This document shows positions 14,462 to 56,330 of a stretch of 64,000 nucleotides of DNA, one piece after another; the first letter of the stretch is position 1; the number at the start of each line of letters is the position of its first letter. The notes under the pieces are model-generated. The model had not been told where the DNA came from. It saw nothing but the letters and a program-made list of their open reading frames with translations, and made no database searches. The stretch covers positions 1 to 64,000 of the forward strand of contig NZ_RHNP01000004.1 of NCBI RefSeq assembly GCF_003950295.1, written 5' to 3'. The position numbers were made by a program, and so were the translations under genes. The DNA is from Loigolactobacillus iwatensis (GTDB lineage Bacteria > Bacillota > Bacilli > Lactobacillales > Lactobacillaceae).

Positions 14462-14601
14462 TGAAATTCCCCCCTTAAATTGATTGCGACTTTTACTTCT
14501 TGATTTCAGTATGCCAAAAAAATTGGTGCAACGCGATAAATATGCTGTTAATTTATAAACTGGTGGGGGAATTGATTTGTAACCCGTTAATATAAAAATA
14601 A

Positions 14602-14648
14602 GCCAGACATTCCAGTAAAAACCTTTTTACTGGAATGTCTGGCCTTTT
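14602..14648. terminator. Bidirectional hairpin terminator
   Basis: GCCAGACATTCCAGTAAAAA and TTTTTACTGGAATGTCTGGC are perfect 20-base arms with a two-base loop, followed by a short T-run on the plus strand and an A/T-rich tail on the minus strand. Confidence 0.8.
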
Positions 14649-14656
14649 TATCCAAC

Positions 14657-14761
14657 TTAATTTTCGTCTTGTAAATGATGATCGTCATGGAATAGAGCAA
14701 GTAGTAAACCAACAACAATAACTGCGGCTTCAGCAAAGCTAACCGTAACATCACCCTCCAA
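14657..14761 (-). pseudogene. Possible holin-like toxin peptide or remnant
   Basis: On the minus strand a short frame reads VTVSFAEAAVIVVGLLLAL followed by FHDDHHLQDEN and a TAA stop, just before the terminator. A hydrophobic helix with a charged tail resembles the small holin-like toxins of lactic acid bacteria. A GGAGGG site lies at the expected place, but the ATG behind it (14751) is in a different frame, whose product is unlike any family I know. The good frame offers only a TTG at 14761 without a binding site, or a non-standard GTT. A one- or two-base loss at the start codon would explain this. I am unsure that it is expressed. Confidence 0.35.
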
Positions 14762-14842
14762 ATTATTTAGCTATCAAAACCACTATATATTATAGAACTA
14801 ATTTTAGAAAAAGTTAAATAATAAATGAATTCATAAAAAAGT

Positions 14843-14871
14843 TTGACAGTCTCACAATCATCTGTTATGAT
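14843..14871 (+). promoter_or_regulatory. Promoter of the aromatic amino-acid operon leader
   Basis: TTGACA (14843-14848) and TATGAT (14866-14871) are spaced by 17 bases. Transcription would start near 14878, just before the leader ORF's ribosome-binding site. Confidence 0.85.
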
Positions 14872-14901
14872 TTTGTTATCAAATTCTAAGGAGTTTTTAA
14901 T

Positions 14902-14973
14902 ATGACAGTCGTGAAAGAGCAAGTTATGACACAACTGAATAATCGATATTATTACTATTGGTTCTTTAACTAG
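14902..14973 (+). CDS. Leader peptide with Tyr-Tyr-Tyr-Tyr-Trp-Phe-Phe run (attenuator)
   Basis: This is a 23-codon ORF whose product begins MTVVKEQVMTQLNN and ends RYYYYWFFN. It has an AAGGAG site (14888-14893) eight bases before the ATG and lies about 25 bases after a near-consensus promoter. Seven consecutive aromatic codons directly before the stop are not expected by chance. Such a run is the hallmark of ribosome-mediated attenuation, in which slow decoding when charged tRNA is scarce changes the folding of downstream RNA. The operon behind it makes precursors of exactly these amino acids. The peptide itself probably has no function. The regulatory mechanism is inferred from sequence only. 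Confidence 0.85.
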   Translation: MTVVKEQVMTQLNNRYYYYWFFN

Positions 14974-15096
14974 TGTTTGCACTGGCAGTATAGGTGCAAA
15001 CACGACGTTTGTATCCTATGCGGGCCAATAGTTCTTAATCGTATGTATTAAAAACGGTAGCCACATAGAGATGAAATTAAAATTTCAGCTGTGTGG
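14974..15096 (+). promoter_or_regulatory. Aromatic operon attenuator: competing RNA hairpins
   Basis: Directly after the leader stop codon a series of exclusive pairings is possible. Pairing 1:2 is TGTTTGCAC (14974-14982) with GTGCAAACA (14994-15002). Pairing 2:3 is ATAGG/CAAAC (14990-15001) with GTTTG/CCTAT (15007-15019). Pairing 3:4 is CTATGCGG (15016-15023) with CCACATAG (15061-15068), with one mismatch. Segment 4 is also the 5' arm of the terminator. A ribosome stalled on the Tyr codons leaves 1:2 free to form, so 3:4 can form and block the terminator. A ribosome that reaches the stop covers segment 1, so 2:3 and the terminator form. In addition ACTATTGG in the leader (14954-14961) can pair with CCAATAGT (15025-15032). 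This model is my inference. Confidence 0.7.
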
Positions 15097-15102
15097 TTTT
15101 TT
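15061..15102 (+). terminator. Attenuator terminator
   Basis: CCACATAG and CTGTGTGG form the lower stem (with one G-U pair) and TGAAATT with AATTTCA the upper stem. Six T residues follow at 15097-15102. Confidence 0.8.
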
Positions 15103-15141
15103 CTTATCGATGACGCTATCAAAGTCTTTTGTTGATTACGG

Positions 15142-15177
15142 AGTCCCACAGCAGACAAACGCTGGGGGACTTTTTTT
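15142..15177 (+). terminator. Second intrinsic terminator before tkt
   Basis: AGTCCC-CAGC and GCTG-GGGACT (one unpaired base on each side) are followed by seven T residues. It ends only about 35 bases before the tkt start codon, so transcripts must read through two terminators to express the operon. Confidence 0.85.
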
Positions 15178-15210
15178 ATAACTTTAAACAAAATGATGGA
15201 GGAATTGATA

Positions 15211-17238
15211 ATGATAAAATTTGATGAAATTGATGAATTAGGCGTTAACGCAGTTCGGATGTTGAGTGTTGAGATGATCGAGGCAGCACAGTCAGGGCAT
15301 CCAGGCTTACCGTTAGGGGCAGCACCACTGGCCTACACGCTATTTACCCGACATTTAAAAATAGATCCAGAAAATCCAGAGTGGTTTGATCGTGATCGGT
15401 TTGTTCTATCGGCTGGGCACGGATCAGCAATGTTGTACAGTTTATTACACCTTTCCGGATTTAATCTAAGTATTGCCGATTTAAAACAATTTCGCCAATT
15501 AAATAGTCGAACACCAGGACACCCGGAACACGGTGTAGTCCCAGGTGTTGACGCAACTACCGGGCCACTTGGGCAAGGAATCGGAATGGCGGTTGGGATG
15601 GCAATGGCCGAAGCACATTTAGCAGCCATTTTTAATCAAGCGACCAAACTAGTTGATCATCATACATACGTCATTTGTGGTGATGGTGATTTGATGGAGG
15701 GTGTGTCTCATGAGGCTGCAAGTCTTGCCGGACACCTCAAATTGTCCAAGTTAATTGTTTTGTATGATTCAAATGATGTTTCGCTAGATGGCCCAGCTGA
15801 TCGTGCACTCACTGATAATGTTCAAAAGCGTTTTGAGAGTTACGGTTGGCATTACCAGCAGGTTGCCGATGGAAATGATTTAACCGCAATTGATCGGGCA
15901 ATTACACAGGCTGAGCAACAAGCAACGGCACCGACATTGATTGAAGTTAAGACGATTATTGGCTATGGCGCACCAAAGCAAGGAACTAATCAAGTTCATG
16001 GTAGTCCACTTGGGGCGGATGGTATTATTGCTTTGAGGAAAGCTCTGAATTGGCAAGAAGCAGAATTTACCGTTCCTAAACCTGTAACCAAACGTTTTAC
16101 GGAAACATTACGCCAAAATGGTGCTCATAAACGTCAGCTGTGGGAACAACAACGGCAAAGATTGAGTCCAAAGGTGGCACAACAGTTTAAACAGGCAATT
16201 GCGCAGGAATTACCGGCCAATTGGACTAATGAGTTACCAACTTATAAACTAGGTCAAAGTGAATCGGGTCGAGTCACTAGTCAAAGGATGATTCAAGCAA
16301 TTGCGAATAAAGTTCCGACGTTTTGGGGTGGATCGGCGGACCTTGCCACATCAAATAAAACCGATATTGCAGGAAGCAACTCGTTTACAGCATTAACCCC
16401 GGAACAGCGAAATATTTGTTTTGGTGTTCGTGAGTTTGCTGAAGCTACGGCCTTAAATGGCATTGCATTGCACGGTGGTAGCCACATCTTTGGTGGAACC
16501 TTCTTTACCTTTTCTGATTACATGCGTGGTGCCATTCGGCTGGCGGCCTTACAGAAACTACCCGTCACTTATATTTTCACCCATGATTCAATTGCTGTTG
16601 GGGAAGACGGCCCAACCCATGAGCCAGTTGAGCAGTTAATGAGTTTGCGGGCAATGCCAAACGTTTCAGTTATTCGCCCGGCAGATCCGAATGAGGCCGT
16701 TGCGGCTTGGAAATTAGCGCTGACTATTCATGATCGACCAACTGTTTTAGTTTTTACCCGCCAAGATTTGGCGGTTCTAAAGGGGACTCAGCAGCTAGTG
16801 AGTGGCGTTAGTCGCGGCGGTTACGTGCTGTCCGCCCAGCAAGGAACGCAACCAGAAGGGGTGTTGATTGCCAGTGGGTCCGAAGTAGCCTTAGCGCTAA
16901 CTGCTCAACAGGAATTATTGAAATTAAAGCATGATGTTGCGGTGGTATCCATGCCCTCTTTTGATCGGTTTGATCAGCAGTCCCGCCAATACCAAGAGCA
17001 AGTTTTACCGGGGGGAGTGCGCGATCGTCTTTCAATTGAAATGGGAGCAACTTTAGGTTGGGAGCGATACGTTGGGTTAGATGGTGTTAGTCTGGGAATT
17101 GATTCCTTTGGGGCCAGCGGTAAGGCCGCCGAAGTAATTAGTAAGTACGGTTTTTCAACCAAGGCCATTACTACTGCTTACTTAAAAATGTGGGAACAAA
17201 ATAATTTTTCACAAATTCCAAAACGGGAGGCCATTTAA
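15211..17238 (+). CDS. tkt: Transketolase
   Basis: Transketolase moves two-carbon units between sugar phosphates using thiamine diphosphate and can make erythrose-4-phosphate. From the ATG at 15211, eight bases after GGAGG, the protein has 675 residues, the usual length. Motifs include SGHPGLPLGAAPLAYTLF near residue 25, the cofactor block GDGDLMEGVSHEAASLAGHL near 155, HGGSHIFGGTFFTFSDYMR near 424, and THDSIAVGEDGPTHEPVEQL near 462. It is the first gene of an operon with aroE, aroF, aroB and pheA (two bases to aroE). This strongly suggests that its job here is to feed erythrose-4-phosphate to aromatic synthesis. A housekeeping copy elsewhere is possible. Confidence 0.93.
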   Translation: MIKFDEIDELGVNAVRMLSVEMIEAAQSGHPGLPLGAAPLAYTLFTRHLKIDPENPEWFDRDRFVLSAGHGSAMLYSLLHLSGFNLSIADLKQFRQLNSRTPGHPEHGVVPGVDATTGPLGQGIGMAVGMAMAEAHLAAIFNQATKLVDHHTYVICGDGDLMEGVSHEAASLAGHLKLSKLIVLYDSNDVSLDGPADRALTDNVQKRFESYGWHYQQVADGNDLTAIDRAITQAEQQATAPTLIEVKTIIGYGAPKQGTNQVHGSPLGADGIIALRKALNWQEAEFTVPKPVTKRFTETLRQNGAHKRQLWEQQRQRLSPKVAQQFKQAIAQELPANWTNELPTYKLGQSESGRVTSQRMIQAIANKVPTFWGGSADLATSNKTDIAGSNSFTALTPEQRNICFGVREFAEATALNGIALHGGSHIFGGTFFTFSDYMRGAIRLAALQKLPVTYIFTHDSIAVGEDGPTHEPVEQLMSLRAMPNVSVIRPADPNEAVAAWKLALTIHDRPTVLVFTRQDLAVLKGTQQLVSGVSRGGYVLSAQQGTQPEGVLIASGSEVALALTAQQELLKLKHDVAVVSMPSFDRFDQQSRQYQEQVLPGGVRDRLSIEMGATLGWERYVGLDGVSLGIDSFGASGKAAEVISKYGFSTKAITTAYLKMWEQNNFSQIPKREAI

Positions 17239-17239
17239 G

Positions 17240-18127
17240 ATGATTGCGATTGACGGACACACAAAATTATACGGATTCTTTGCACACCCAGCACACCATA
17301 GCTTGTCACCTTTAATGTATAATTTGAGTTTTCAGGCTCATGAAATTAACGCACGCTATTTAGCCTTTGATTTATCTAATGATTTTTCACAAGCGATTGC
17401 TGCTGTACGAACATTAGGCCTTGGGGGAATTAATCTTTCAATGCCGTATAAACTTAAGGTGTTGCCACTTCTTGATGAATTATCTACGACGGCCGAATTG
17501 GTTGGTGCCGTTAATACGGTTGTCAATGACCATGGTCGGCTTAGGGGTGAAAATACTGACGGTAAAGGGTTAATACTGGCCCTGCAGGCTGACGGAAGAA
17601 AGATTGCGGGTAAACAAATCGTTATTCTAGGTGCTGGTGGTGCCGGAATGTCAATTATTGCTGCGGCTGCCTTTGCTGGTGCGGCCAAGATTACGGTCTT
17701 TAAACGCCAAAATCAAACCTTTACCCAAGTGGCGCAGTGTTTGAATCAAATTGAAAAAGTGACCCAAGTTGCACTTGAATTATGTGATTACGCGGATGAA
17801 ACTGCGATGGCGCAAGCATTAGCAACAACCGATTATTTGATTAATACGACTAATATTGGTATGGGCCAGGGAAACAATGAGTTACCAGTACCTGCAAAAT
17901 TGATAACGAGCTTAGCGGCTAACGTAGTGGTCACGGATATCATCTATTTTCCACAGGAGACGGCCTTTTTAAAGTTAGCTAGACAAAATGGTAACCCGAC
18001 CTATAATGGTTTAGGAATGTTGATTTATCAGGGAGCTTTGGCTTTTCAAATTTGGACGGCTAAACAAATGCCGATTAAAACCGTTACGACAGCTCTAGAA
18101 CAGGCTTTGTACCAACCACAAAACTAA
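17240..18127 (+). CDS. aroE: Shikimate dehydrogenase AroE
   Basis: AroE reduces 3-dehydroshikimate to shikimate with NADPH. The 295 residues show the substrate site SLSPLMYN near residue 16, the GxNxxxPxK block GINLSMPYKL near 61 with the catalytic lysine, and the ENTDGKG block near 104 with the conserved Asp. The nucleotide-binding GAGGAGMS lies near 133. The start lies two bases after the tkt stop, with GGGAGG inside the end of tkt. Some family members act on quinate or other substrates (YdiB type). The operon context supports true AroE. Confidence 0.92.
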   Translation: MIAIDGHTKLYGFFAHPAHHSLSPLMYNLSFQAHEINARYLAFDLSNDFSQAIAAVRTLGLGGINLSMPYKLKVLPLLDELSTTAELVGAVNTVVNDHGRLRGENTDGKGLILALQADGRKIAGKQIVILGAGGAGMSIIAAAAFAGAAKITVFKRQNQTFTQVAQCLNQIEKVTQVALELCDYADETAMAQALATTDYLINTTNIGMGQGNNELPVPAKLITSLAANVVVTDIIYFPQETAFLKLARQNGNPTYNGLGMLIYQGALAFQIWTAKQMPIKTVTTALEQALYQPQN

Positions 18128-18142
18128 AGGGGATTATAAATT

Positions 18143-19147
18143 ATGATTATTCAATTAAACCAAACTGTAAACGAAGAAATTGTTGCTGCCTTACTTAAAC
18201 GTTTAGCGGCCACACCAGCTACTGTTATTCGAATTGGAACTCACGTTGCAGTACCCGAAGTAAAACAGGTAACGTTAACTACCGATGAAGCCGCGCAAGT
18301 TGCCGAAGTTATTGAAAAGACGCCGGCCGCAGTACTTGGTAGCCGATTATTCCAACCAGAAGATACGATTATTAAATTGCCCCACTCAACAATCGGAGGC
18401 AAAGGCAGTTTTACAATGATGGCCGGTCCTTGTTCTGTTGAATCAGAAGAACATGTTCGAAGAATGGCCAAGGTAGCTAAAGAAGGCGGGGCAACCTTAC
18501 TTCGTGGCGGAGCCTACAAGCCACGGACTTCACCATATTCTTTCCAAGGTTTAGGTGAAGATGGTTTGAAATATTTGCGCGCGGCGGCTGATGAAAACGG
18601 CATGGACGTGATTACAGAAGTGATGGACGAAACTCACGTGAATTTGATTGCTAAGTATACAGATGTTTTCCAGATTGGCGCCCGGAATATGCAAAACTTT
18701 TCTTTGTTAAAGGCAGTTGGTAAAACTAAGGTGCCGGTCGCTTTAAAACGGGGATTAGCTGGTACGATTGATGATTTATTAAACGCTTCAGAATACATAG
18801 CGGCCGGTGGTAACCACCAGATTATGCTGTTAGAACGGGGAATTCGGACTTTTGATAATAAATATACCCGCAATACTTTTGATTTGGCTGCCGTACCAGT
18901 TTTGCAAAAATTAACCCATTACCCAGTTATTGTTGACCCAAGCCACGCTGTTGGTGAATGGGATTTGGTAACGCCGATGGCCCATGCTGGTGTGGCTTCT
19001 GGGGCTTCTGGCATGATTGTTGAAATTCACGATGACCCAGAACACGCTTTTTCTGATGGTCCCCAAGCACTGAAACCAAAAACTTATTTAAAAATGACCA
19101 AAGAAGTTTTTGAACTAAAAGCATTAATGAATTCATGGGAGGCATAA
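18143..19147 (+). CDS. aroF: 3-deoxy-7-phosphoheptulonate (DAHP) synthase, type I beta
   Basis: DAHP synthase joins phosphoenolpyruvate and erythrose-4-phosphate in the first step of the shikimate pathway. The 334 residues consist of an N-terminal ferredoxin-like regulatory domain (about residues 1-75) and the catalytic barrel. The barrel motifs include AGPCSVES near residue 94 (metal-binding Cys), LRGGAYKPRTSPYSFQG near 117, ALKRGLAGT near 194 and IVDPSHAVGEWDLV near 263. The N-terminal domain is the type linked to feedback inhibition by Tyr or Phe. It is the third gene of the operon, 15 bases after aroE. Confidence 0.94.
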   Translation: MIIQLNQTVNEEIVAALLKRLAATPATVIRIGTHVAVPEVKQVTLTTDEAAQVAEVIEKTPAAVLGSRLFQPEDTIIKLPHSTIGGKGSFTMMAGPCSVESEEHVRRMAKVAKEGGATLLRGGAYKPRTSPYSFQGLGEDGLKYLRAAADENGMDVITEVMDETHVNLIAKYTDVFQIGARNMQNFSLLKAVGKTKVPVALKRGLAGTIDDLLNASEYIAAGGNHQIMLLERGIRTFDNKYTRNTFDLAAVPVLQKLTHYPVIVDPSHAVGEWDLVTPMAHAGVASGASGMIVEIHDDPEHAFSDGPQALKPKTYLKMTKEVFELKALMNSWEA

Positions 19148-19150
19148 TTT

Positions 19151-20215
19151 TTGAAAACAGTCACAGTTACTTTGCCTGCTAAAACTTATCAAATCAAAAT
19201 TGCAGCAGGTTTACTTACTCAAGTTGGAAATGAGGTGGCCAGCTTATGGTCACCACGAAAAATTGCTTTAGTAAGTGATAGTCACGTTGAACCCCTTTAT
19301 TGTGAGCAGGTGGAAACTTCTTTAATCGCTGCCGGTTTTACGGTTCACGTTTACCGTGTGCGCGCAGGTGAAGATTCAAAACAGCTAGGTGTTTTATCGT
19401 CACTTTACGAGGAATTGCTAGGCGATGACTTTGGTCGCTCTGACGGTGTTATTGCGTTGGGCGGTGGCGTTGTTGGGGACTTGGCTGGCTTTTTAGCATC
19501 AACTTACATGCGTGGTATCAGTTTCATTCAAATTCCAACGTCATTACTTGCCCAGGTTGATAGTAGCGTAGGTGGTAAAACAGGAGTTGACTTGAATACT
19601 GGTAAAAATCTGATTGGTACCTTTTATCAGCCGGACGTTGTTTTGATTGATCCAACCGTTTTACAAACGTTAAGTCAACGTTTCTTAGTTGAAGGCTATG
19701 CCGAAATTGTTAAAATGGCAGCTATTTCTTCGCTAGATTTTTGGCACTTAATTGAAAACATTAACCAACCTAAAGATATTCTAAAGCAGGCGCCAGCTCT
19801 AATTGAAGCGAGTGTTCGGTTTAAGGCCCAGATTGTTGAGGCTGATGAAAAAGAAGGCGGTTTGCGCCAAATCTTAAATTTTGGGCACACCTTAGGCCAC
19901 GCAATTGAATTATTGGCTGGCGGTCAGCTTGCACATGGTGAAGCAGTCAGTATTGGAATGGTGCAAATAACTCAAATTTTTGAAGACCGGGGGCTAACAC
20001 CCAGTGGAATAACGGCCCAACTAAAAAAGCAATTATTGGCTGTTGGTTTGCCAATTTCAAGCGATCTTATCGGTAGTCCGCAATTTTACGAGTTACTGAA
20101 ACACGATAAGAAAAACCATGGCGATCAGTTAACGTTAGTTTATTTAAAGGAACTGGGTACAGCAGATTTATACCCAGTGAAGCTAACTGCAATTCACAAT
20201 TTTCTGAACTTATGA
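19151..20215 (+). CDS. aroB: 3-dehydroquinate synthase AroB
   Basis: AroB cyclises DAHP to 3-dehydroquinate, using NAD and a divalent metal. The 354-residue protein has the NAD-binding block ALGGGVVGDLAGFLASTYMRG near residue 99, IPTSLLAQVDSSVGGKTGVD near 125, the metal ligands in GYAEIVKMAAI and LNFGHTLGHAIE near 241, and HGEAVSIGM. The start is a TTG at 19151, eight bases after GGAGG in the end of aroF, and no ATG fits. The stop overlaps the pheA start (ATGA). Confidence 0.94.
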   Translation: MKTVTVTLPAKTYQIKIAAGLLTQVGNEVASLWSPRKIALVSDSHVEPLYCEQVETSLIAAGFTVHVYRVRAGEDSKQLGVLSSLYEELLGDDFGRSDGVIALGGGVVGDLAGFLASTYMRGISFIQIPTSLLAQVDSSVGGKTGVDLNTGKNLIGTFYQPDVVLIDPTVLQTLSQRFLVEGYAEIVKMAAISSLDFWHLIENINQPKDILKQAPALIEASVRFKAQIVEADEKEGGLRQILNFGHTLGHAIELLAGGQLAHGEAVSIGMVQITQIFEDRGLTPSGITAQLKKQLLAVGLPISSDLIGSPQFYELLKHDKKNHGDQLTLVYLKELGTADLYPVKLTAIHNFLNL

Positions 20216-21066
20216 TTCGGCTTGCAGTTTTAGGGCCAGCTGGAACCTTTAGTGATGTGGCTGCCCGCCAGTATTTAAAAAAGCATCAACTCAATTACTC
20301 ACTGAACTATTACAATACCATTGAGCAGGTAGCGGTTGCCGCTTCCGAAACGGACCAACTAGCCCTGTTGCCGTTAGAAAATACCTTGGACGGTTATGTT
20401 CAAAATACGTTGGCCATTTTGGCAACGGGGCAGTTGAGAATTAACGGGGCAGTGATGGTGCCAGTTCGTTTTTCATTGGCTGCTAATGTGCTAGAGCTTA
20501 ATAAAATTAAGCGACTCTACGTTCAGTTTAAAACTAAGGGCCAGTGTACAAAAATAATTCAGCAACTACCTCAGGCAGAGTTATTAACTACGGAAAGTAA
20601 TATGCTTTCTTTTGCAAAATTAGAAAATTCAGTTGCTGGCGATGCTGCGATTATCCCGCAATTTCATTTACCGGAATTAAACCCGAAAAAATATTTGCTT
20701 GTTTCGGATGTTACGGATCAGTCGGATAATTTTACTCGTTTTATTGTGGTTGGGAAAAAGATAGAAATGGCCGCAATTGGTGCCACTAATCGGTTTCGTT
20801 ATACTTGCTATGTGACGCCAAAAAGTGATTATGCAGGATTGCTATACGATATTTTAGGCCATTTTGCAAAGGCACAGCTTAATTTGATTTCGTTAATATC
20901 ACGACCAACCAAAAAGAAAATGGGTCAATATAGTTTCTACATTGAGGTTAGTGGTGTGGGTGAGCAATTACCTAAATTACACCAAGTATTACAGCAATTA
21001 GGTAAGCATTATACGGTTCTTGACCTTGGCGTTTATCCAGCAACTGATTTAACCGAATCAGACTAA
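20212..21066 (+). CDS. pheA: Prephenate dehydratase PheA with ACT domain
   Basis: PheA converts prephenate to phenylpyruvate, the last pathway-specific step to phenylalanine. The 284 residues carry an N-terminal catalytic domain (GPAGTFSDVAA near residue 8, LLPLENTLDGYV near 53, and the NFTRF motif near 179 with the catalytic Thr) and a C-terminal ACT domain (about 200-280). The ACT domain contains LISLISRPTKKKMGQYSFYIEV, matching the region that binds Phe in other enzymes. It overlaps aroB by four bases and closes the operon. Chorismate mutase and tyrA are not in the window. Confidence 0.92.
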   Translation: MIRLAVLGPAGTFSDVAARQYLKKHQLNYSLNYYNTIEQVAVAASETDQLALLPLENTLDGYVQNTLAILATGQLRINGAVMVPVRFSLAANVLELNKIKRLYVQFKTKGQCTKIIQQLPQAELLTTESNMLSFAKLENSVAGDAAIIPQFHLPELNPKKYLLVSDVTDQSDNFTRFIVVGKKIEMAAIGATNRFRYTCYVTPKSDYAGLLYDILGHFAKAQLNLISLISRPTKKKMGQYSFYIEVSGVGEQLPKLHQVLQQLGKHYTVLDLGVYPATDLTESD

Positions 21067-29808: not shown

Positions 29809-30052
29809 AAAAAAAGAGGGCCGCTCGAAAGCGAACCCTCACAAAGTATCACTACTCTGTAGATAATCTGGTAGTGCCGTTGTTAATCCCTTCGGATTGA
29901 ACCCGCGAAAAGGCAGGTGGGCTCAGCTACCTAAAGATACTAGCTTCCTCGTGAAAAGGCATGCTTGATCTAAAGATTGAAAGCCGATCCCAAATTTAAT
30001 TACTTGATCGGTCAACACCATAATAGGAATAATCGAACACCTCAGAAAATCT
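29809..30052 (-). ncRNA. ssrS: 6S-like RNA (Lacto-usp motif candidate)
   Basis: This is a 240-nt non-coding transcript read on the minus strand between rarA and the usp genes. It has its own promoter and ends in a perfect terminator (GAGGG-CGCT-TTCG-AGCG-CCCTC then seven T). Between them are several hairpins: CCGATC/GATCGG, AATCC-GAA-GGGATT, and CACTAC/GTAGTG. 6S RNA genes of Firmicutes often lie beside rarA (yrvN), and the Lacto-usp motif lies before a small gene and usp, both as here. 6S RNA binds sigma-A RNA polymerase and mimics an open promoter. The identification rests on position and structure and was not tested against a covariance model. Confidence 0.75.
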
Positions 30053-41328: not shown

Positions 41329-41334
41329 AACAAC

Positions 41335-41566
41335 AAAGCATTGAGCAAGAAAGTAACGTCTAAATTTGGGGCTAAGAGATAAAGTTCATTGGCTGAGAGA
41401 CTTTACCCACTTAAACGTGAAGGTAACTTGTGAGCTGTTAGATTGAAGTGAGTAGATCTAACCGGACAAGTAGTTCGTTAACGTGATGAAGTGGCGCAAT
41501 AGCGCAATTTAGGTGGTACCGCGAATTTAAGCATTCGTCCTATTAATTAGGATGAATGCTTTTTTG
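41335..41566 (+). promoter_or_regulatory. T-box riboswitch, Val specifier, upstream of valS
   Basis: The leader shows an AGTAA specifier-loop element, a distal GAGAGACTTTA loop, and a candidate specifier GTG followed by A (41417-41419, or the second GTG-A at 41448). The antiterminator bulge AGGTGGTACCGCG starts at 41511, and its TGGT fits a tRNA ending ACCA, as tRNA-Val. The terminator GCATTCGTCC/GGATGAATGC runs into a T-run. Uncharged tRNA-Val would raise valS expression. Which GTG is the true specifier was not resolved. Confidence 0.9.
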
Positions 41567-52021: not shown

Positions 52022-52290
52022 CATAATATAAAAACAGTGAACGGATAAGTAACCCTGATAGTTCTGTAGAGAGTTTCTGGTTGGTGTAAAGAAATGACTA
52101 TTGGTGGTGAAAACACATCTGGGAGTTTACCTGCTGAAGATAGTAAGCAAGTACGGGATAAGCCCGTTATAGCTGTAGTTACTAATAAACTACTTGAGGT
52201 AACTGGTGTGAGCTAGTTACGAACTTGAGGTGGAACCGCGATAATTTTCGTCCTCTTAGCATCGTTTGATGTTAAGGGGACTTTTTTATT
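52022..52290 (+). promoter_or_regulatory. T-box riboswitch (His CAC specifier likely) of the amino-acid ABC transporter
   Basis: Stem I has an AGTAA loop, an AGAGAG bulge with TTTCT/AGAAA tip, and an upper stem CC-GATAGT/ACTATTGG. Alignment with the Met T-box of this window places the specifier directly before ATCTGGGAG, giving CAC (His, 52114-52116) followed by A. AAC or ACA in other registers cannot be excluded. Stem III (GTAACT/AGTTAC) precedes the T-box bulge GAGGTGGAACCGCG (52227-52240), then the terminator GTCCTCTTAGCATC/GATGTTAAGGGGAC with a T-run. The TGGA bulge predicts a tRNA with U73, which is not expected for His. Confidence 0.85.
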
Positions 52291-56035: not shown

Positions 56036-56198
56036 AACCAATCCACTTCTTTCCCTAATGTTAAAATAAAATTAGTATTAGCATAGCAAAAACTCATAAG
56101 AAACGCAATTGGGATTAGAATCCGATTAGTTATTTTAGTTGACAAACGATCTGCTAAGCAATATCATAAAAGCGGTTTAATAATTAAATAAAGCAACA

Positions 56199-56330
56199 CC
56201 ACAGAGGGGAGCCTTTTTGGCTGAGAGTGATTCGTTCAGACCCTTAGAACCTGTTATGTTAGTACATGCGAAGGAATTTGTGGCTATTTGGTATCCCCCT
56301 CTTGTGGTTTGTTTTTTAATCTAAGGGAGG
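56199..56330 (+). promoter_or_regulatory. TPP riboswitch (thi box) controlling thiT
   Basis: The core elements GGGGAGCC, GGCTGAGAGTGA, ACCCTTAGAACCTG and ACATGCGAAGGAA are intact, with P1 formed by CCACA and TTTGTGG (56276-56282). Downstream, CCCCCTCTTGTGG (56295-56307) can pair either with the 5' strand CCACAGAGGGG (56199-56209) or with the thiT ribosome-binding site AAGGGAGG (56323-56330). This suggests translational control: without TPP the site is free, with TPP it is hidden. A T-rich stretch also allows a terminator role. Confidence 0.93.

Follow-up and report, generated by a model that had tools for sequence, protein, structure and literature searches.

Leader attenuators of the enterobacterial trp, phe and his systems combine a peptide rich in the regulated amino acid with mutually exclusive hairpins and an intrinsic terminator, and a stalled ribosome leads to readthrough. 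In Lactobacillales, T-boxes are common.

Leader-peptide attenuators with His codons have been described in Firmicutes (PMC9413887 and PMC2965389, in their accessible parts). A putative attenuator with a Phe-codon uORF before aroF, uORFC-13-1, is attributed in the accessible part of PMC8632094 to Acholeplasma and environmental DNA only. Two catalogued RNA families are closer to the locus studied here. The trpB motif (SRC-39-1; RF04312) has more than 900 published representatives in Firmicutes and Fusobacteria and was ranked as a strong riboswitch candidate. Its description comprises a hairpin P1, a terminator and an antiterminator in the right shoulder of P1, and its authors leave a classic attenuator possible (PMC11109978, accessible part). 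The second family, RF02863 or 'Enterococcus sRNA 2410', stems by its name from the E. faecium transcript sRNA_2410, for which the accessible part of PMC5593968 gives 195 nt by RNA-seq and two transcripts by Northern blot. Our literature search, which had most subscription journals outside it and in part reached only portions of papers, found no published description of the leaders reported below.

Here we analyse a leader in front of an aromatic amino-acid operon in a 64-kb window, that is, the whole stretch of DNA under study. We consider it very probable that this element is a ribosome-mediated transcription attenuator and that it senses how far Tyr, Trp and Phe tRNAs are charged. It is likely, though we hold this less firmly, that it belongs to one modular family of attenuators sensing tRNA charging. 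Its members would share a constant RNA ladder, exchange the codon cassette (Trp; Tyr/Phe; Tyr+Trp+Phe; Ile) and, across Lactobacillales, control the synthesis and transport of aromatic amino acids and isoleucine. Such a family would explain both the trpB 'riboswitch candidate' and 'sRNA 2410', and its codons would predict which TrpX-like transporters carry Tyr/Phe and which carry Trp.

Leader peptide and operon

The locus has a near-consensus promoter, an RBS and a short ORF whose last eight codons are Tyr-Tyr-Tyr-Tyr-Trp-Phe-Phe-Asn. The initial annotation had pointed to this promoter and to a 23-codon ORF with seven consecutive aromatic codons just before its stop, and both are confirmed in the sequence:

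14843-14871, + strand: sigma-70-type promoter, TTGACA-17-TATGAT, 11/12 matches, extended -10 (TG before the -10 box)
14888-14893, + strand: leader RBS, AAGGAG
14902-14973, + strand: leader peptide ORF of 23 codons, MTVVKEQVMTQLNNRYYYYWFFN-stop (ATG at 14902, stop codon TAG at 14971-14973), with comparable leaders in relatives
14947-14967, + strand: regulatory codons Tyr-Tyr-Tyr-Tyr-Trp-Phe-Phe (TAT TAT TAC TAT TGG TTC TTT)
15211-17238, + strand: tkt, transketolase, first gene of the operon, over the curated cut-off
17240-18127, + strand: aroE, shikimate dehydrogenase, over the curated cut-off
18143-19147, + strand: aroF, DAHP synthase (B. subtilis type), over the curated cut-off
19151-20215, + strand: aroB, 3-dehydroquinate synthase, over the curated cut-off
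20212-21066, + strand: pheA, prephenate dehydratase, recognised but below the curated cut-off

The operon tkt-aroE-aroF-aroB-pheA proposed at first thus holds firmly for its first four genes and at a lower score for pheA. Similar promoter boxes (TTGAC..TATACT) lie 5' of the leader in the relatives L003-L007, and the AAGGAG recurs in L002-L006 at equal spacing, give or take one base, with aaggat in L007.

We searched for aromatic leaders defined by an ATG, an RBS pattern, 8-40 codons and at least six aromatic residues among the last nine. The studied leader is the sole such ORF on both strands of the window, and 1.2 Mb of simulated first-order Markov sequence modelled on 14600-15190 contained none on its + strand. 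A set of 80 aroF loci (1.09 Mb), drawn from many phyla, yielded three ORFs of this kind (L199, L205 and L238), all of them 5' of aroF or its operon. The one in L238, from a Clostridium MAG (2907-2975), is an unrelated-looking aromatic leader (..VYYYFSLGYF) with a terminator-like hairpin before aroF; the covariance model R1, introduced below, does not match it.

A ladder of exclusive pairings

Folding located all of the exclusive pairings drawn in the initial annotation (1:2, 2:3, 3:4 and 4:terminator), as well as the terminator after them. The chain is longer than the five-segment switch then proposed. It runs codons (segment 0), stop, A, B, C, C', D, E, F, G, with the pairings 0:C', A:B, B:C, C:D, D:E, E:F and F:G:

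14954-14964, + strand: segment 0, codon stretch ACTATTGGTTC, 11 pairs with 15022-15032, found in the MFE fold, as a duplex and through compensatory changes in L003 and L009
14974-14983, + strand: segment A (initially segment 1), directly after the stop codon, partner of B
14990-15001, + strand: segment B (initially segment 2), partner of A or C
15007-15021, + strand: segment C (initially segment 3), partner of B, or of D as antiterminator
15022-15032, + strand: segment C', GGGCCAATAGT, partner of the codon stretch (segment 0)
15059-15077, + strand: segment D (initially segment 4), 5' arm of terminator 1
15082-15104, + strand: segment E, 3' arm of terminator 1, with U-run
15140-15177, + strand: segments F and G, second intrinsic terminator with U-run

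Within these segments, A:B joins 14975-14982 with 14994-15001, B:C joins 14990-15001 with 15007-15019, C:D joins 15008-15020 with part of 15059-15077 (9 pairs, -7.9 kcal/mol), and D:E joins 15059-15077 with 15082-15098; the E:F complementarity amounts to 8 pairs (-11.5 kcal/mol). The fold is far more stable than shuffled sequence, with z of -5.5 for 14875-15190 and -4.2 for 14970-15110. By sequence, two intrinsic terminators precede the first gene, at 15059-15104 and 15140-15177, neither of which was listed by a simple terminator scan of the sequence. The initial annotation contained neither the second of these, which lies beyond its interval of 14843-15102, nor the 11 pairs between the aromatic codons and 15022-15032, the right shoulder of its segment 3. 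Given that the aromatic codons pair with C', folding predicts that the switch is OFF when no ribosome is present.

We regard it as extremely unlikely that the terminators are controlled mainly by a protein (TRAP-like or other) or by a T-box. T-boxes do occur elsewhere in the window, at 41332-41545 and 52028-52258, before valS and an amino-acid ABC transporter (genes named by inspection), and trpX of S. suis is under T-box control according to the accessible part of PMC9382623. However, the T-box family RF00230 has no Rfam match in 14780-15220 at E up to 5, and neither the codon:C' pairing nor the position of segment A next to the stop is easily accounted for unless a ribosome takes part. Among other RNAs, the window carries a TPP riboswitch at 56195-56294 and a 6S RNA at 29861-30051 on the minus strand.

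Conservation in relatives

The leader that we read as a ribosome-mediated attenuator stands before the same operon in six of the seven other genomes of the genus; the seventh, G001, gave no AroF match. In other genera the flanks differ, with leaders before aroE-aroF-aroB (G009) or an aminotransferase (G015), and in another family (G051) a leader lies before a TrpX-like binding protein.

R1, a covariance model made from nine leaders of the studied type, has matches in 143 of 350 family genomes (E <= 0.01) and in 24 of 40 genera. We read 62 of the matches: the top 22 that lie outside the first-known set, plus 40 selected among the remaining ones. When only RBS and start codon decide the choice of ORF, all 62 have an aromatic-run ORF at the expected place, a count that is biased towards such ORFs because R1 contains the aromatic codons. 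A typical ending is RFYYYWF, before tkt, aroF or aroE; the start is ATG in 61 and an RBS pattern is present in 59.

Among seven Lactobacillales loci chosen by AroF, R1 matches six (Lentilactobacillus otakiensis, Lentilactobacillus sp. Marseille-Q4993, Secundilactobacillus hailunensis, S. paracollinoides, Enterococcus canintestini and Ligilactobacillus ruminis) and has no match at the AroF locus of S. collinoides; since L. otakiensis and L. ruminis are themselves part of R1 (L199 and L205 are among the R1-matched loci in the model), the independent count is four of five. A scan for at least five aromatics in seven residues found leaders in three of these seven loci, and the leader of L203 lacks an RBS pattern. 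In L. ruminis DSM 20403, the leader and the operon are present together with a pair of terminator-like hairpins. R1, built without enterococcal sequence, matches the E. canintestini locus, which is of RF02863 type, at E 1e-5. It has no match (E <= 1) at the Acholeplasmataceae aroF loci L211, L216 and L228. The search of relatives suggested by the initial annotation, for an aromatic-run ORF before tkt-aro genes, thus finds the run, the ladder and the target conserved.

The trpB motif and sRNA 2410 as probable relatives

At gathering thresholds, Rfam has no match at the studied locus. Matches below threshold pointed to RF04312 (21.1 bits, cut-off 59) and RF02863 (15.8 bits, cut-off 61), and both families look like relatives of the studied attenuator. 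The leader is no isolated oddity and belongs to an order-wide set of leaders, part of which is catalogued as two Rfam families without a leader peptide.

RF04312 matches 151 of 246 genomes of the order (E <= 0.01), 47 above the cut-off. Its model starts at segment B and so holds no leader, yet a Trp leader lies just 5' in 54 of the 58 loci read. All 30 of the 30 loci above the cut-off have one, ending WQSWRR, WQNWRR, WQSR or similar; the 28 picked weaker loci comprise 24 with a Trp leader, two with Tyr/Phe, one mixed and one with none, a Trp share that is overstated because at least four further low-scoring matches (G122:C2, G110:C52, G174:C1 and G150:C17) coincide with RF02863 and were not read as RF04312. 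The matches with Tyr/Phe or mixed leaders are L151, L152 and L164, and the one with no leader, L145, was left out of the set of 162 leaders used below. In L164, a mixed Trp/Tyr leader precedes an uncharacterised 187-aa protein that has no NCBIfam match. More than one Trp codon is present in 31 of the 54 Trp leaders and a single one in 23.

In the initial reading of loci from both Rfam families, the ORF was chosen partly by aromatic content. When the choice is made by ATG and RBS alone, ignoring aromatics, the RF04312 loci still give a Trp leader in 52 of 58 (Phe/Tyr in three, no ORF in three), and the same rule applied 400-800 bases downstream gives one of 10. As bridges between the models, loci in G249 and G192 match both RF04312 and R1, and several loci match both RF04312 and RF02863. 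A phylum-wide RF04312 search (299 genomes, E <= 0.001) returned three matches outside the order, which have no such leader and look like chance terminators; we therefore confine our claim to Lactobacillales.

These counts bear on the published view of the trpB motif, under which the element would be a metabolite-binding riboswitch with B:C (P1) as part of the aptamer and the ORF as incidental. The motif was indeed classed as a strong candidate on the basis of P1, the terminator and the antiterminator in the right shoulder of P1, in a paper that itself leaves a classic attenuator possible (PMC11109978, accessible part). An incidental ORF fits poorly with a Trp leader in 54 of 58 loci of a model that starts 3' of it, with the 52 of 58 obtained by ATG and RBS alone against one of 10 downstream, or with codon identity that shifts together with the target gene, Ile included. 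We thus judge a riboswitch very unlikely. The leader switch seems instead to explain RF04312, a published candidate riboswitch without a known ligand.

RF02863 matches 132 of 246 genomes of the order (E <= 0.01), 60 above the cut-off. Among 95 loci read, 90 have a Phe/Tyr leader (e.g., QLNNYYFSYFR), four an Ile leader and one, L195 (E 0.46, outside the set of 162), none; by ATG and RBS alone, 69 of 76 have a Phe/Tyr leader, one an Ile leader and six no ORF. Given that RF02863 and R1 include leader nucleotides, leader counts from these two models are biased by the search, which is not so for RF04312.

Codon identity and target genes

The set of 162 leaders includes 159 with a readable first gene; these genes were grouped by BLAST, with NCBIfam names for representatives only. 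Trp leaders precede TrpX-like binding proteins (47) and trpB (4, which are all of the trpB genes), and in L036 the gene after a Trp leader and its trpB-motif terminator encodes a group II intron reverse transcriptase (identified by inspection). Behind Phe/Tyr leaders, some of which include Trp, lie TrpX-like binding proteins (60), aroE (23), tkt-aro (7) and, more rarely, aminotransferases (2), aroF (2), pheA (2), aroC and others. Four leaders (L137, L191, L198 and L183) carry Ile codons, as IISIIR or IIISIIIR, on the same nucleotide scaffold, and their targets are the branched-chain aminotransferase ilvE (2), the threonine ammonia-lyase ilvA and a branched-chain binding protein (below cut-off). 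These Ile leaders are an apparent natural swap of specificity, and the codon cassette is apparently interchangeable on the attenuator scaffold.

The binding proteins form two clades that follow leader class: the tree requires a single change, compared with a mean of 35 after shuffling. A single ancient duplication may underlie this split, and we do not count it as separate evidence of specificity. The curated TrpX cut-off is reached by all three Trp-class proteins tested but by none of the six from the Phe/Tyr class. Among solved structures, 6hni is closest to the one Phe/Tyr-class protein compared and 3lft to the one Trp-class protein; we take 6hni to bind Tyr and 3lft to bind Trp.

Several leaders deserve mention in their own right. 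The studied genome also carries L141 (G000:C4:42110-42208), a Trp-only leader, MKTSNRQKLNRQFWQSQH, before a TrpX equivalog, and two related switches thus coexist there. Aromatic leaders in L343, L345, L347 and L312 precede MFS-like or other membrane proteins (by inspection), which are candidate aromatic amino-acid transporters. Phe/Tyr leaders in L095, L101, L117-L119, L121-L123 and others are three codons longer (..RxxL); this places the stop inside segment A, and the timing may therefore differ.

The peptide might also have a function of its own, as a small protein or as an arrest peptide sensing free amino acid in the exit tunnel, in which case stalling would not be caused by uncharged tRNA. 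A QLN motif 5' of the regulatory run, found in 88 of 224 leaders and in all aromatic classes, is not explained by tRNA sensing, and the 23 of 54 Trp leaders with one Trp codon only could be read in the same way. However, peptide length and N-terminus are variable, and similar scaffolds carry entirely different regulatory codons (Tyr/Phe, Trp or Ile) that change along with the targets. We consider a peptide function of this kind very unlikely and retain the sensing of tRNA charging by a translating ribosome.

Covariation of the pairings

The pairings on which this attenuator would depend covary. In 0:C', clear compensation is seen between ACTATTGG:CCAATAGT in the studied leader, CTTTTGG:CCAAAAG in L003 and CTTTCGTT:AACGAAAG in L009. 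Across nine sequences of the studied type, 90.2% of cells are paired, compared with 36-45% when slid, 12 pairs are changed on both sides, and 0 of 500 shuffles are as good on four of five measures, with the reservation that related sequences in the alignments share pairs by descent. One measure, further pair types, shows no excess over shuffles in the nine-sequence alignment or in the B:C test on 28 sequences. These 28 were picked from the 108 of the Phe/Tyr class, and in them 0:C' and A:B are 93.0% paired (30-45% when slid), with nine double-changed pairs and 0 of 500 shuffles as good; as the RF02863 model includes 0:C' and A:B, both are partly selected for in this test. B:C is changed on both sides at one of 12 pairs in the 28-sequence alignment and at six of 10 in the nine-sequence one. 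Covariation of the exclusive pairings, a check proposed at the outset, is accordingly supported, more weakly for B:C in the larger alignment.

Segments also bind the partner from their own locus better than partners from other loci, for codon:C in 106, A:B in 99, B:C in 84 and C:D in 76 of the 108 Phe/Tyr leaders, and the advantage for 0:C, A:B, B:C and C:D is present in both the Phe/Tyr and the Trp class. For E:F it is seen in 98 of 108 leaders of the Phe/Tyr class and in 33 of 54 of the Trp class, the latter not convincing. In this test an automatic, energy-based choice set D, E, F and G, with a U-run bonus for F:G; the figures for D:E and F:G themselves therefore carry no weight as evidence. 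Among the 108 Phe/Tyr leaders, 26 have a U-run after D:E and 101 have one after F:G, where the U-run bonus had been applied; the studied leader has one after both.

Ribosome position and the proposed switch

In masked folding, the nascent RNA to the end of D was folded with the ribosome footprint removed. For the studied leader, 7-15 C:D pairs are predicted with the A site at codons -9 to -3 from the stop. The number drops below one for codon -2 up to the stop and is 0.0 if no ribosome is present. The predicted ON window (-9 to -3) takes in Tyr1-Tyr4, Trp and Phe1, and its edge shifts by about one codon with the assumed footprint (footprints 10-16). The initial suggestion that Tyr would dominate sensing is thus only partly right, as the Tyr codons share the predicted window with Trp and Phe1. 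Its expectation that a stall at the last Phe codon would cover segment 1 agrees well with the model, in which 9.9 antiterminator pairs are predicted for the first Phe and 0.7 for the second.

Averaged over the 108 Phe/Tyr leaders, predicted C:D amounts to 7.9-11.4 pairs at -9 to -3, drops to 6.5 at -2 and to 4.9 at the stop, and is 1.8 when no ribosome is present. C:D is higher at codon -5 than at the stop in 96 of these 108 and in 47 of 54 Trp leaders. The aromatic (regulatory) codons lie mainly at -8 to -2, which puts the last one at the edge of the ON window: an aromatic codon occupies -2 in 81% of Phe/Tyr-class leaders, where predicted C:D already declines (6.5 pairs). For L141, the Trp leader of the same genome, masked folding with automatically chosen segments did not show the predicted ON window.

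When folding is extended to F, a ribosome at codon -5 gives more E:F than one at the stop in 87 of 108 leaders and less in 21. In the studied leader, E:F is near zero in equilibrium folding, with a gain of at most 2.2 pairs at any ribosome position. Equilibrium folding does not favour E:F switching in L003 either, and in L004 E:F forms even without a ribosome (9.5 pairs). In the studied leader, the second stage may be just a back-up terminator. The terminator is expected to win at equilibrium once E has emerged, and the switch would therefore have to be kinetic.

From these predictions we infer stalling, its dependence on amino acids and its effect on transcription. Without a ribosome, the aromatic codons would pair with C' and B with C, so that D remains available for the terminator (OFF). 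If a ribosome paused, its A site empty, on Tyr1-Tyr4, Trp or Phe1, it would cover the codon stretch and keep segment A free. A would then take B, the freed C would pair with D, no terminator would form, and tkt-aroE-aroF-aroB-pheA would be transcribed (ON). A ribosome at the stop codon would cover A as well, so that B:C and the terminator form (OFF), and the second terminator would back up the first. In the initial annotation, a stall had been proposed to give 1:2, 3:4 and readthrough, and completion to give 2:3 and the terminator; conservation, covariation and masked folding are in agreement with this scheme.

Comparison with known systems

Compared with the trpB motif, the studied leader has the same hairpin B:C with an antiterminator in its right shoulder and the same terminator D:E, and the motif too lies 5' of amino-acid transporters and trpB, with a Trp leader ORF in 54 of 58 loci read. 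It differs in that the motif was published without the ORF and segment A, and in that most of its loci read have Trp-only codons. Our analysis offers a mechanism, open to direct test, for an RNA motif with more than 900 published representatives whose status is that of a candidate riboswitch, ligand unknown.

The sRNA_2410 family shares the leader-stop-A-B-C layout, most of its leaders end in YFSYFR or similar, and the loci read lie 5' of aroE, aroF, pheA, aroC or a TrpX-like binding protein. It is catalogued as an sRNA, whereas we would reinterpret the enterococcal RNA as a terminated leader; its D:E is mostly without a U-run, and termination seems left to F:G.

With uORFC-13-1 the studied leader has in common an aromatic-codon uORF before aroF. 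The His attenuators of Firmicutes also act by leader-peptide attenuation but, from the accessible parts of PMC9413887 and PMC2965389, use His codons in other lineages and apparently another scaffold.

The T-box (RF00230) is likewise a Gram-positive sensor of tRNA charging with a swappable specificity codon, but it reads the tRNA directly, without translation, and has no match at the studied locus. Our results suggest that, for aromatic amino acids, lactic acid bacteria have a reprogrammable analogue of the T-box that works through translation, and that a swap of its codons accompanies a change of target pathway. One prediction is that the TrpX-like binding-protein clade behind Phe/Tyr leaders should carry Tyr/Phe.

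The enterobacterial attenuators show the same features as the studied leader, namely an amino-acid-rich peptide, exclusive hairpins, an intrinsic terminator and readthrough on stalling. In contrast to them, the regulatory codons here precede the first hairpin and themselves form pairs with the distal shoulder of the second one, this codon pairing adds a segment and predicts an OFF state by default, and related scaffolds carry Trp, Tyr/Phe, all three or Ile codons. What is distinctive of the studied leader is thus the codon pairing that predicts default OFF, a stall site 5' of the first hairpin and codon sets that track the target genes.
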